From the NCBI RefSeq assembly GCF_039645985.1, contig NZ_CP147919.1, forward strand, positions 434,001 to 498,000: a stretch of DNA of 64,000 bases. The letters run 5' to 3'. The notes under the pieces are model-generated. The model was not told where the DNA came from and ran no database searches. It saw only the letters and a list, made by a program, of their open reading frames with translations. The stretch comes from Sulfurimonas sp. HSL3-7. GTDB taxonomy: Bacteria; Campylobacterota; Campylobacteria; Campylobacterales; Sulfurimonadaceae. This document shows positions 21,993 through 50,174 of this stretch, in pieces. Made by a program: the position numbers and the translations under genes. How positions within the stretch are numbered: the first letter of the stretch is position 1; every line of letters starts with the position of its first letter.

Positions 21993-24017
21993 TTAGAATT
22001 TGTAGCTTGCGCTGACGTAGTAGTAACGACCCGGTTCGTTCAGCAGCATCACCTCGTCACCGCCTGTCAGCAGGGTGAGATCGCTATAGGTGTTTGAAAC
22101 AGCATAGGTCTTGTCAAAGACATTGTCAACACCGGCAGCGATGCCGAAGCCGTAAGGGAGTTTATGGTCGATCTTCAGGTTCATGATGCCCCATGAAGCG
22201 ATCTCCTGTTCGCCATTATCACTATCATAGTTTTTCCATGTATCGGCACCGACAAATTCAACTGTCGCAGTACTTTCTTGGTAGTAGACATAATTAAGCG
22301 CGACATTACCTTTAAGAGGCGGAATCTCTGCAAGGTTGGTGTTCGTCTGACCTTCAAGGGCTTTGTCTTTTTTACCGCGCTGGTAGGCGACACCGAAATC
22401 AGCGTAGAGATTGTCAAGGGCGTAGTAGCTTCCAGTGATCTCAAAGCCGTATATCGTTGCGTCAATGTTCTCGAATGCGTTTACAGCTTGACCACCGCCG
22501 TTGACGTTGCTTGAGTTGTAGTAGATATAGTCTTTCAGCATGCTGTAGAACAGTTTTGTTTTAAGAGAGAAACTTTCATACTTGTTCTCCATCCCCAGGT
22601 CGACTTCATAATTTGTCGTCTGATCAAGGTCGGGTGTACCAACTTCATTCCCCATAAGTCCGTAAAAGTAGAGCTCTCTTGCATCAGGAACACGCGATGC
22701 TTTGCCCACGCCTCCGAAAAAGCCCAGATTCGTTGTCGCCTGGTAGTTTGCGAAGATGTTGGCACTGACAGATTGATAGTCATTATCCGGTTGATCACTT
22801 GACGGTGTGATCTTGGTATTGTCATAACGTAAGCCGTACTTGATAGTAAGATCTGATATTTTTTGGTTAAGCTCTGCGAAGAGAGCAGCATTAACGGTGT
22901 CAACATCCGTAATACTGGTATCACTCCACATGGCATTGACAGTCGAAGCCGACTCGCCATTTACGGTGTACTTTCCATCCCAGTTGCGTTTACTGCCGTC
23001 AAGGCCTACTTTCAATTCCAGATTGTCGTTGATATCAGCAGTATTAATGAGCTTAACGCCCTGTATATCAGTCGTCAGTTTACTGACTTTAATGCCGCCT
23101 TGCGGAAGAGGCTTCGTACTTGACACTCTGTACTCAGTTGACATCGGATGTTCAACGTCAGAGTAGTAGTATTGAAGGTCCAGTTCTTTGGAGACTGCAC
23201 CGATGTTGCGGATGATGTACTCCGCCGTATAGAGGTTTGAGTCATCATAGAGTGCATCCATTTTGCTGGAGGGGTAAAGGATGTCGTCGCTGCGGTTGGC
23301 GGTGTAGCCGAAACGGAGTTCCTGGTCGTCTGTGATGTTAAAAAAGAGTTTTCCCATTAAAGTCTTTTTCGTATAGGCGTCCATGTCCCTGTATTTGTCC
23401 TGATACGCTGCTCCGGCAGTAGGTGAAAGGTAGTTGTCGATCTGCTCGGCAAAATCATTACCGTCACCGTCTTTGTACTGTCCGCTGGTCTCGCCCGACA
23501 TACTCAGAAGCAGTTTGAAACGGTCCGTCCCGCCTGTGATCGTACCTGCGGCTTTTTTGTAGCCGAAGCTGCCCACACCGAAGTTGATATCACCGTGGAC
23601 ACCCTCTTCAGGCTCTTTCGTCGTGATCTTGACCGCACCGCTGAGGGTACCGAAGTTCTCGACATCATACGGTCCTTCGACGATCTGGATGCTCTCGATG
23701 TTGTTGGTCAGAACGTGCGAGATCGGCGGGTCCATGCGGTTGGGACAGGCGCCGTAGATCTTGCCGTCGTCGATGAGGACATTGATGTTGTCCTTTTTCT
23801 GTCCGCGCAGGATGATATCATTGGCGATCCCGCTTCGGCGTACGAGCGAGACCTCTGGCACTTTGTATGACAGCGCTACAGCCGCATCGGCAGATTTGAT
23901 CTCTTCGCCGCTGACATCCTCGAGTGTGGTACTTTCTACAGCGATCGTATCGATCTCGACCTCTGCAGCATTAAGCATAGCTGCACAGGCAAGAGAAAGG
24001 TAGACAATTCTTTTCAT
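21993..24017 (-). CDS. TonB-dependent outer membrane receptor, OprC/NosA-like (probable copper)
   Basis: 674 residues: signal peptide 1-18, plug domain (about 40-135) with DIILRGQKKDNINVLIDD, and a 22-strand barrel ending in the outer-membrane signature YYYVSASYKF with terminal Phe. The plug contains YGACPNRMDPP, giving a CxxxM pair (Cys91, Met95), and an extracellular segment contains HPM (His290, Met292). CxxxM with HxM is the copper site described for Pseudomonas OprC. This points to copper uptake rather than siderophore transport, fitting an organism with copper enzymes such as nitrous oxide reductase; that link is an inference. No TonB/ExbBD genes are adjacent. Confidence 0.88.
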   Translation of the reverse strand: MKRIVYLSLACAAMLNAAEVEIDTIAVESTTLEDVSGEEIKSADAAVALSYKVPEVSLVRRSGIANDIILRGQKKDNINVLIDDGKIYGACPNRMDPPISHVLTNNIESIQIVEGPYDVENFGTLSGAVKITTKEPEEGVHGDINFGVGSFGYKKAAGTITGGTDRFKLLLSMSGETSGQYKDGDGNDFAEQIDNYLSPTAGAAYQDKYRDMDAYTKKTLMGKLFFNITDDQELRFGYTANRSDDILYPSSKMDALYDDSNLYTAEYIIRNIGAVSKELDLQYYYSDVEHPMSTEYRVSSTKPLPQGGIKVSKLTTDIQGVKLINTADINDNLELKVGLDGSKRNWDGKYTVNGESASTVNAMWSDTSITDVDTVNAALFAELNQKISDLTIKYGLRYDNTKITPSSDQPDNDYQSVSANIFANYQATTNLGFFGGVGKASRVPDARELYFYGLMGNEVGTPDLDQTTNYEVDLGMENKYESFSLKTKLFYSMLKDYIYYNSSNVNGGGQAVNAFENIDATIYGFEITGSYYALDNLYADFGVAYQRGKKDKALEGQTNTNLAEIPPLKGNVALNYVYYQESTATVEFVGADTWKNYDSDNGEQEIASWGIMNLKIDHKLPYGFGIAAGVDNVFDKTYAVSNTYSDLTLLTGGDEVMLLNEPGRYYYVSASYKF

Positions 24018-24145
24018 TTTTGTTCCTTAAATTATAATCTATCAATAAGTTCGATGCAGGATAGAAAAAAAGTGTTACATTAGTGTTAAGAAAGCAGAAA
24101 TAGTCAGAAAAAGCGCAGTGCAACAGCGACGATGTTCCGATCTGC

Positions 24146-47392: not shown

Positions 47393-47790
47393 TGGCGACA
47401 CGTCACCATGCCAGAATGGCGGTTGTAAGTCTGCTTTATGCTTTTGACCTCGGTAATAAAAGCATTTCCGATTTCACGGATGAGATTTTGGAAGACAAAA
47501 AGATCCGTAACAAACAAAAAGAGTTCGCATTGGACCTCTTTCGCGGCGTGATGGAACACCTTGAGAGTGTTGACAAGGCGATCGTTAAACACCTTAAAGA
47601 GTGGGATTTTGAGCGTTTGGGTTCGATAGAACGGGCCACTCTCCGTTTAGGCGCCTATGAGATCATGTATTCTTCACTCGATTCCGCAGTTGTGATCAAT
47701 GAAGCAATCGAGGTCTCAAAAGCTTTTGGGACCGAGCAGTCACCAAAATTCATCAACGGGGTGCTTGACGCCATCTCCAAAGATAAATAA
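47392..47790 (+). CDS. nusB: transcription antitermination factor NusB
   Basis: 132 residues, all-helical. N-terminal RHHARMAVVSLLYAFDLGN and C-terminal SSLDSAVVINEAIEVSKAFGTEQSPKFINGVLD match the family, which binds boxA with S10 during rRNA transcription. Its stop overlaps the start of the multiheme cytochrome by one base, an unexpected link between housekeeping and respiration. Confidence 0.95.
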   Translation: MATRHHARMAVVSLLYAFDLGNKSISDFTDEILEDKKIRNKQKEFALDLFRGVMEHLESVDKAIVKHLKEWDFERLGSIERATLRLGAYEIMYSSLDSAVVINEAIEVSKAFGTEQSPKFINGVLDAISKDK

Positions 47791-50174
47791 TGTTCAAACT
47801 ACTTGTCACAACACTTTTGACTCTTTCGGCACTTTACGCGTCAAACAGTTGTGTCAAGTGCCATGAAGGGATCGAAGATATCCGCGACCCGCATTCCAAG
47901 ATGATGGAAGAGATCTACAAAGTCGCGGAAAAAGCAGGCCATCGAGGCAATGACTGTATTGTCTGCCACGGCGGGGACCCGACCACGATGGTCAAAGAGC
48001 GGGCCCATAAAGGTACGGTAGCCTATTTTTTGGAACATGAAGGTCCCAAAGATTACTACCCCGCACCGGGCAGCAGCTGGATCAACCAAAATACCTGCGG
48101 TATGTGTCACAAAGAACAGGTCAATGCGCAGATGAACTCCCTGATGATGACCGAGCAGGGTAAGATACAGGGCGCGCTTTGGAGCTTCGGCGGTAAAGTG
48201 GGCTACGACCACTCGGTGGCCACCTATGCTACCGGCAATCCCGAAGATCCGCACAAACGTTTGGGCAGTGATGCTTATAAGGCCTATATGCAAGAGCTTT
48301 CTGCGCTTGAACCGCAAGCCTTTCCTGGGGAGACGGGAGAGCTTCCCAAAGCGCCGACAGCCGAAGAGATCGAAAAAGATCCGTCTCTGGCGGTCTATAC
48401 CTATCTGCGTCAGGAGTGTCTGCGCTGTCATACCGGCAGCAAGGGGCGTTCAAAGCGCGGTGACTTCAGAGGCATCGGCTGTGCCGCGTGCCACATTCCC
48501 TATTCAAACTCGGGTCTGTACGAAGGCGGCGATAAGCAGATATCGAAAAATCCGGGGCACCTGCTTGTGCACAGTATCCAATCTTCACGTAAGGCGAAGG
48601 TCAAAGTCCATGAGGTCGAGTACTCCGGCGTGCCTGTTGAGACCTGTTCGACCTGCCACAACCGGGGCAAGCGGATCGGGGTCTCCTACCAGGGGCTGAT
48701 GGAGATGGAGTATGACGCAACTTTTGACGAAGAGGGCAAGGGACAGCCGAAACTCCATGGCAAGCGTTACCTGCATATGCAAGAGGATATCCACTATAAA
48801 AAAGGGATGCTCTGCCAGGACTGCCACACCTCAAACGATCTGCACGGTGACGGCTTTTTAAGCGGGGCAAATCTGGGGGCTGTTGAGATCGAGTGTCAGG
48901 ACTGTCACGGTACGACCTCAAAATACCCGTGGGAACTTCCCCTGGGCTACTCTGACGAATTCAACGAGAATGCCAAGGTCGGCGAGCCTCGCGGTACCGT
49001 TAAAACAGTTGCCGAATACCTCAGGAAGGGGTCTGTCGAAGCGGCACCCGAGGGGTACCTTTTAAGCGCCCGGGGCAACCCCCTGACAAAAGCGGTCCGC
49101 AAAGGTGACAAAGTGCTTATGCACCTGGCCTCAGGCAGAGATATTGAATTGACACCGCTCAAAACGCTGAAAAAGGAGAAAAAGCTCTCCCGTGAAGCGT
49201 TGGCGGCAATGGACCAGATCAAAGCCCATACGGATGAACTGGAGTGTTATACCTGCCATGCGACCTGGGCACCGCAGTGTTACGGCTGCCATGTCAAGAT
49301 AGACTATTCCGGTTCCAAACAGAATCCCGATTACCTGGAGGCTTCGCATGATCAGGATATCCATGGAACGACGGGGGGCATGCGTTCACTTAAAGAGTAC
49401 CTTGTCGACGGAGAGGTGACAGAGACAAGGTCCTTCCTACGCTGGGAAGATCCGGCACTTTCTCAAAACGGCGAAGGACGTATCTCGCCGACGATACCGG
49501 GATGTCAGACGACTATTACTGTTATCGGGAAAGAGGGCAAAGCACTCTTGCAGAACCACATCTTCAAGATCCCGAATGTTGAAGGTGCGGGAGATGAAGG
49601 TCAAAATGCTATCGATATGGCAGCGGTACAGCCGCACACCATCTCCAAAGCGTCCCGCTCCTGCGAATCGTGCCATACGTCGGCCAAGGCATTGGGGCTG
49701 GGTATCGGCGGCGGCAAACTCAACGCTGATCCTAGCCAAGATACAATTGTCGATTTAATGACGGCTGACGGGCGTCTGCTGCCGGCCAATGTGCAGAGAC
49801 AGATACCGCGTATCGCGAATCTGAAAAATGACTATTCACGTTTTATTGATGAGAACGGCACGCAGTTGCAGACCGTCGGGCACCACTGGAAGCTTTCGCA
49901 GCCGCTCAATGAAGAGCAGCGTTCCAAAGTGGACAGAGAAGGGATGTGCCTGTCATGTCATAAAGAGATGCCTGACGGCGATCTGGCTGTCTCGGCAATG
50001 GTGCATGCCGTAGAGATGGCGGGCATCGAAATAGACAAAAAAGAGCATGGCGGTATCTTAAACAAACTCTTGCGTATCGGAGCCTGGTTGCAGCTCTTAG
50101 TGGGAATTTTGATTGGCGGGTATATTATATACAGGCTCTTTTTTAAGCGTAAAAACCCAAGGAGATGGAAGTGA
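47790..50174 (+). CDS. membrane-anchored dodecaheme cytochrome c
   Basis: 794 residues with signal peptide 1-18 and twelve CxxCH sites: residues 21-25 (CVKCH), 55-59 (CIVCH), 102-106 (CGMCH), then CLRCH, CAACH, CSTCH, CQDCH, CQDCH, CYTCH, CYGCH, CESCH and CLSCH. One C-terminal membrane helix (about 765-787) with a basic end RLFFKRKNPRRWK places the hemes in the periplasm. It could be a terminal reductase, quinol-linked conduit or electron storage protein; the pattern is not that of NrfA, HAO or OTR as far as can be seen. Coupled to nusB (1-base overlap) and to the DUF302 gene (GTGA overlap). Confidence 0.88.
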   Translation: MFKLLVTTLLTLSALYASNSCVKCHEGIEDIRDPHSKMMEEIYKVAEKAGHRGNDCIVCHGGDPTTMVKERAHKGTVAYFLEHEGPKDYYPAPGSSWINQNTCGMCHKEQVNAQMNSLMMTEQGKIQGALWSFGGKVGYDHSVATYATGNPEDPHKRLGSDAYKAYMQELSALEPQAFPGETGELPKAPTAEEIEKDPSLAVYTYLRQECLRCHTGSKGRSKRGDFRGIGCAACHIPYSNSGLYEGGDKQISKNPGHLLVHSIQSSRKAKVKVHEVEYSGVPVETCSTCHNRGKRIGVSYQGLMEMEYDATFDEEGKGQPKLHGKRYLHMQEDIHYKKGMLCQDCHTSNDLHGDGFLSGANLGAVEIECQDCHGTTSKYPWELPLGYSDEFNENAKVGEPRGTVKTVAEYLRKGSVEAAPEGYLLSARGNPLTKAVRKGDKVLMHLASGRDIELTPLKTLKKEKKLSREALAAMDQIKAHTDELECYTCHATWAPQCYGCHVKIDYSGSKQNPDYLEASHDQDIHGTTGGMRSLKEYLVDGEVTETRSFLRWEDPALSQNGEGRISPTIPGCQTTITVIGKEGKALLQNHIFKIPNVEGAGDEGQNAIDMAAVQPHTISKASRSCESCHTSAKALGLGIGGGKLNADPSQDTIVDLMTADGRLLPANVQRQIPRIANLKNDYSRFIDENGTQLQTVGHHWKLSQPLNEEQRSKVDREGMCLSCHKEMPDGDLAVSAMVHAVEMAGIEIDKKEHGGILNKLLRIGAWLQLLVGILIGGYIIYRLFFKRKNPRRWK

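Follow-up and report, generated by a model that had tools for sequence, protein, structure and literature searches.

The stretch of DNA analysed here (the window) comprises 64,000 nucleotides of the genome of Sulfurimonas sp. HSL3-7. An open reading frame with an ATG start on its minus strand (positions 21993–24017) codes for a TonB-dependent receptor of 674 amino acids, which consists of a plug (about residues 35–119) and a beta-barrel. Both PF07715 and PF00593 scored above their gathering thresholds and the structural model shows the same two domains, placing the protein in the TonB-dependent receptor superfamily. The gene is flanked by housekeeping genes without any link to copper, which were named from reading the open reading frames as NUDIX, MgtE, agmatine deiminase and alanine racemase types. 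No Rfam family matched anywhere in the 64,000-nt window, and scans for promoters and terminators returned nothing decisive.

The original prediction had pointed out the motifs C91xxxM95 and H290xM292 in this protein, and re-reading the codons confirmed them at exactly these positions, as C91PNRM95 and H290PM292. The codons on the minus strand for Cys91 (23745–23747), Met95 (23733–23735), His290 (23148–23150) and Met292 (23142–23144) align with those residues of the Pseudomonas receptor OprC that are numbered Cys143, Met147, His323 and Met325, respectively, when counted along the printed OprC row of the alignment. Cys91 is the only cysteine beyond the signal peptide, and the receptor contains 4 histidines, including His290, and 14 methionines in all.

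Relation to OprC

A phmmer search against the PDB returned six sequences at E ≤ 0.001, all of them OprC (best E-value 5.8e-25). HMMER and profile alignments to OprC (6fok) placed the CPNRM motif of the receptor on CPNRM of OprC and its HPM motif on HIM. According to excerpts of the paper on OprC (PMC8610252), Cys143, Met147, His323 and Met325 are the copper ligands of that protein, which in addition has a methionine track including Met286, Met339, Met341 and Met343, with Met286 binding silver. Only Met286 of this track has a methionine counterpart in our receptor, the invariant Met253 (codon at 23259–23261, minus strand), while the OprC segment with Met339, Met341 and Met343 aligns with a methionine-free stretch.

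The AlphaFold2 model, built with 56 sequences, reached a mean pLDDT of 88.4 and a pTM of 0.86. In this model, C91 to M95 lie in a stretch of the plug without regular structure. The HxM motif, which had been predicted to belong to an extracellular segment, is instead located within a barrel strand (residues 278–293). The predicted fold is nearest to that of OprC: Foldseek listed OprC chains at ranks 1–28 (E-values of 3.9e-40 to 2.5e-37) before FrpB as the next family (4.3e-31), and VIA-align listed OprC at ranks 1–13 (Z 38.4–39.5, about 590–600 residues at 2.3–2.7 Å) before ChuA (Z 37.3), with heme and zinc receptors within about 2–4 Z units of OprC. The proposal of an OprC-type copper site is supported at the level of sequence and model, by the exact alignment with the four OprC ligands, their invariance in the orthologues (see below) and the fold ranking.

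The receptor scored 168 bits against the TonB-copper family TIGR01778, which has a cut-off of 472 bits, and among 56 members of the subfamily the best match to that family had an E-value of 1.3e-67. Further profile scores showed weak family matches to heme, siderophore and ZnuD receptors. Because the TIGR01778 score is far below the cut-off and most of the OprC methionine track is absent, we regard the receptor as representing a separate OprC-like subfamily outside the TIGR01778 equivalog, which probably works like OprC.

Conservation and distribution

Whole-genome searches that made no use of the motif yielded 91 loci (L003–L053 and L134–L173), and 62 orthologue rows were left after removing identical sequences and fragments of up to 300 aa. 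Cys91, Met95, Met253, His290 and Met292 are kept in all 62 of them. The same five residues are present in 80 of 80 rows from a contig scan, which was partly selected by motif (pattern [YC]GACPNRM or R[VL]PDA[RK]ELY). A chance occurrence of CxxxM/HxM is ruled out by the conservation of the four ligands in all 62 orthologues not selected by motif. The genome of HSL3-7 contains 8 barrel matches in total, and the three other alignable receptors among them lack the CxxxM/HxM residues. Both motifs are also kept in the low-scoring Campylobacterota receptors L142–L144 (26–30% identical). Two of these, L142 and L144, exceed the TIGR01778 cut-off with 513 and 718 bits and therefore represent canonical TonB-copper receptors; L143 reached 373 bits.

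In three genomes where no orthologue was found at E 1e-20, receptors which are only 22–27% identical to the window protein retain CPNHM and HYM (L258, L267 and L268). L258 adjoins an agmatine deiminase gene and L267 adjoins NUDIX and M23-type genes, so both neighbourhoods recall the locus in the window. As a separate observation, all three stand behind the same promoter box as our gene (see below), with the ligands conserved though the remainder of the protein has diverged.

Matches to the receptor were found at E ≤ 1e-20 in 121 of 151 genomes from the taxonomic family of HSL3-7 and in 86 of 298 Campylobacterota genomes, 83 of which were counted as containing orthologues at a threshold of E ≤ 1e-100, setting aside three weak matches. 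Within the family, the gene is usually found in the same conserved region of housekeeping genes, with no copper gene adjacent; in 16 of 21 loci it was accompanied by genes of the agmatine deiminase and alanine racemase types. One genome (G265, locus L149) carries two tandem orthologues with about 12 bp between the open frames.

We also found 28 gammaproteobacterial copies (among loci L058–L131) with 52–60% identity, many of them in genera of sulfur oxidisers such as Sedimenticola and Thiodiazotropha. In a tree of the 80 best loci, calculated with FastTree only and showing long branches to the outgroups, these copies group in a single starred branch nested among those of Campylobacterota. For these 80 loci, this suggests one horizontal transfer from Campylobacterota to Gammaproteobacteria as the simplest reading. 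Viral contigs contained no relative of the receptor.

A shared promoter box

Aligning the upstream regions of four close relatives revealed an invariant 18-bp block, TAACACTAATGTAACACT, amid poorly conserved DNA. In the window, this block is the direct-repeat box TAACACT-AATG-TAACACT at 24071–24088 (minus strand), about 54 bp before the start codon and likely a site for an OmpR-family response regulator. It is followed after 8 bp by TATCCT (24057–24062, minus strand), a possible −10 element, and many relatives have a TATA-like element at the same place. The 11-bp period and the position just ahead of a −10-like element would fit an activator of the OmpR/PhoB type. With up to 2 mismatches, TAACACT-N4-TAACACT occurs in 73 of 103 non-identical upstream regions of Campylobacterota receptors, compared to 14 of 2865 control windows of the same size from the same loci (0.5%), and in 0 of 23 gammaproteobacterial upstream regions.

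Within the complete genome of HSL3-7, the box is no more common than a reversed control pattern if up to 2 mismatches are allowed (25 vs. 26 sites). We therefore restricted the count to sites with no or one mismatch, which gave 3 exact and 8 one-mismatch sites for the box and 2 sites with at most one mismatch for the reversed pattern. Ten of the 11 sites precede a correctly oriented gene and the eleventh has no clear target. The identical 18-mer is present ahead of the receptor gene and of the DsbD_2-ccoNOP operon (L203, 11967–11984, plus strand), which codes for a cbb3 oxidase. The remaining targets, named partly by reading and partly by search, are two DUF2202 genes, a second DsbD_2 gene, an ExbB-ExbD-TonB set, a TonB gene with a regulator pair further on, two regulator-kinase pairs and a predicted outer membrane protein. 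A further site with two mismatches lies ahead of a second TonB receptor gene with a DsbD_2 protein. The two DUF2202 genes are located at L204:4311–4889 and L206:3691–4374, one of them being followed by genes for a response regulator and a kinase. Separately, a one-mismatch box at L209:4691–4708 precedes a regulator pair transcribed divergently from genes which, on reading, resemble a zinc uptake set. A phosphate (Pho) box has the same 7-4-7 layout but was set aside, as reading the openings of the downstream frames revealed no pst genes behind the sites of this genome.

In 41 genomes of the family, we counted 64 exact sites compared to 9 for the control. By coordinates, 22 of these lie 41–89 bp upstream of the match of the orthologue. 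The other 42 comprise 2 sites from HSL3-7 itself, 34 sites which were fetched with their surroundings, and six sites (G010, G036 and G044) which were left out. Among the fetched sites, five precede DsbD_2-cco genes (L244, L246, L254, L256 and L259), four precede NosL with an ABC transporter (L261, L263, L271 and L272) and one a gene for an HMA protein (L266). Genes for PepSY proteins with TonB receptors follow at L245 and L269, TonB at L255, other TonB receptors at L242, L258, L267 and L268, DUF2202-like genes at L243 and L262, regulator genes at L274, and sets ending in a regulator pair at L264 and L265; 13 sites have no evident link (e.g., L248, L250 and L252). Because the box also stands ahead of DUF2202 genes, of TonB receptors that lack the copper motif and of genes without an evident link, the regulon may respond to another metal, to oxygen or to the redox state.

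The identical box at the receptor gene and the DsbD_2-ccoNOP operon suggests that an OmpR-family two-component system may control both as parts of one regulon. A response regulator gene adjoins the receptor gene in most loci of the Sulfurovum type, and among four regulators of HSL3-7 that were compared, its product most resembles the regulator whose gene follows TonB in L208 (44–47% identity in most cases). We therefore consider the L208 regulator as the first candidate for binding the box. The candidate response regulator genes of HSL3-7 are located at L208:789–1442, L207:7514–8155 and L206:4489–5175.

Linkage to nitrous oxide reductase genes

The prediction that the receptor bears on copper supply to nitrous oxide reductase did not hold for HSL3-7 itself. 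Its complete genome (one contig, 2.87 Mb) contains neither NosZ, as judged by the lack of a TIGR04246 match, nor NosL, which rules out this role here; the ccoN gene of a cbb3 oxidase is present. For part of the family the idea does hold, since the receptor gene lies directly upstream of nosZ in some relatives. Loci of the Sulfurovum type contain a TonB gene, the receptor gene and, 209–370 bp further on, nosZ on the same strand. Eight distinct loci show the receptor-nosZ arrangement (L095, the same place as L154, L099, L101, L108, L113, L155, L156 and L157). The nosZ products of L095 and L155 match TIGR04246 with 858 and 862 bits, respectively, and NosD is encoded next in L095. NosL is encoded immediately downstream of the receptor in L059, L110, L114, L130, L133 and L164, with Pfam matches confirming the assignment in L133 and L059. 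In L159, NosL is encoded close by in a nos region, on the other strand. A deep clade shows a different linkage: in 6 of 7 fetched loci (L134–L140), a gene for a DsbD_2-type membrane protein follows 4–139 bp after the receptor gene, as assigned by Pfam for one of them (L138).

Among the 298 Campylobacterota genomes, 41 contain both the receptor and NosZ, 42 only the receptor, 47 only NosZ (two of the 88 NosZ genomes carry a split nosZ gene) and 168 neither. The co-occurrence exceeds random expectation (Fisher p 8e-6, uncorrected for kinship). Nevertheless, NosZ is missing from 42 of the 83 genomes with the receptor, and the receptor is missing from 47 of the 88 with NosZ; supply of NosZ therefore is not the general role of the receptor. 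Of the 41 genomes that carry both genes, 4 have them adjacent (G352, G354, G358 and G394, all from one genus), and in G203 they lie within about 15 kb.

Proposed function

From these data we infer copper as the substrate, as well as the direction of regulation, the regulator and the client enzyme. The receptor is most likely a copper importer in a regulon for the supply of cuproenzymes. The original proposal of a dedicated copper importer is supported by the ligand-exact alignment, the invariance of the residues, the fold ranking, the neighbourhood in relatives and the shared promoter box. In the proposed mechanism, the receptor would import copper ions across the outer membrane and hold them between the plug (Cys91 and Met95) and the barrel wall (His290 and Met292), as in Pseudomonas OprC, until TonB/ExbBD remodels the plug and copper is released into the periplasm. 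The promoter would use the direct-repeat box as a site for an OmpR-family response regulator in place of a −35 region. Because the same box precedes the DsbD_2-ccoNOP operon, the cbb3 oxidase is the most likely recipient of the copper in HSL3-7, and in relatives with nosZ or NosL beside the receptor gene the copper may also serve nitrous oxide reductase. We assign a probability of roughly 0.77 to this reading of a box-controlled copper importer with an OprC-type site.

An alternative is that the receptor exists as a dedicated NosA, which supplies copper to nitrous oxide reductase. The arrangement upstream of nosZ at eight distinct loci, the adjacent NosL genes and the co-occurrence with NosZ would fit, but the absence of NosZ and NosL from the genome of HSL3-7, the many genomes with only one of the two partners and the restriction of adjacency to a single genus make this reading improbable. 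We rate it equally improbable that the receptor imports another metal or a chelate (zinc, silver, a metallophore or heme) and merely inherited CxxxM/HxM. The weak family matches to heme, siderophore and ZnuD receptors, the structures of ChuA, ShuA and ZnuD close behind OprC in the fold ranking and the box site with a response regulator beside zinc-uptake-like genes point in this direction, while the invariance of the soft Cys/Met/Met/His set and the links to NosZ, NosL, HMA and cbb3 argue against it.

A different question is whether the box responds to copper at all. It may be the site of an oxygen or redox regulon, the receptor being a copper importer that tracks respiration rather than copper status, as suggested by its position ahead of the cbb3 oxidase genes in HSL3-7 and at five of the 34 fetched sites. 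We consider this unlikely, if less so than the two alternatives above, as the targets also include receptors, TonB/ExbBD, NosL, HMA and sets of PepSY and TonB receptors, which together resemble a metal-acquisition profile. Extending the reading as a copper importer, we tentatively propose, at somewhat less than even odds, that free-living Campylobacterota share a copper-scarcity regulon, in which a dedicated OmpR-family two-component system acting on TAACACT-N4-TAACACT would jointly switch on OprC-like receptors, TonB/ExbBD, NosL/ABC delivery and cbb3 oxidase with DsbD_2. The receptor would be the entry point of this regulon, and in some genomes little of it would be recognisable beyond the ligands and the box.

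Among known systems, OprC of P. aeruginosa and NosA of P. stutzeri (TIGR01778) share with the receptor the fold of plug and barrel, CxxxM and HxM motifs that align with each other, the counterpart of Met286 and a connection to nitrous oxide reductase genes in some genomes. The receptor differs from them by an identity of only about 20%, a score under the TIGR01778 cut-off, few track methionines, a conserved box of the response-regulator type and a linkage to TonB, NosZ/NosL or DsbD_2 genes depending on the clade. CrtA (BfrG) of Bordetella pertussis is a copper receptor proposed to serve heme-copper oxidases in respiration, a role like the one suggested for our receptor, and in relatives PepSY and TonB genes are among the targets of the box; however, neither a PepSY (PepSY_TM) gene nor a cruR gene is present at the receptor locus. 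Excerpts of one paper place CrtA in a similarity cluster of its own apart from OprC (PMC12914433), and those of another link a PepSY protein and a copper receptor of Bordetella to heme-copper oxidases (PMC13038864), which fits the targets of the box. The zinc receptor ZnuD of Neisseria is likewise a TonB receptor, and its ion site has a location similar to that in OprC according to the excerpts of the OprC paper (PMC8610252). Our receptor matches it weakly (41 bits vs. a cut-off of 950). The ligands of ZnuD presumably differ from the CxxxM/HxM set.

Copper is scarce in sulfidic waters, and the receptor would bear on copper limitation of both N2O reduction and microaerobic respiration in these habitats. 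It would also help to explain how Campylobacterota obtain copper; the import route of Campylobacter jejuni is described as unknown in excerpts of a paper on this species (PMC8267372). Our literature search, judged mostly by titles and abstract openings, found no paper on the receptor subfamily, its linkage to nosZ or the box. With a phylum-wide family carrying the OprC-type site, a nosZ-linked branch and a box shared with the cbb3 genes, copper entry in Campylobacterota becomes testable in culturable Sulfurimonas and Sulfurovum.

Elsewhere in the window, a gene on the plus strand (47790–50174) lies between the genes for lumazine synthase/KDO8P synthase and a radical SAM gene. It codes for a protein of 794 aa whose match to ExtM, a multihaem cytochrome of selenite/tellurite reduction operons, stays under the cut-off (219 of 800 bits).
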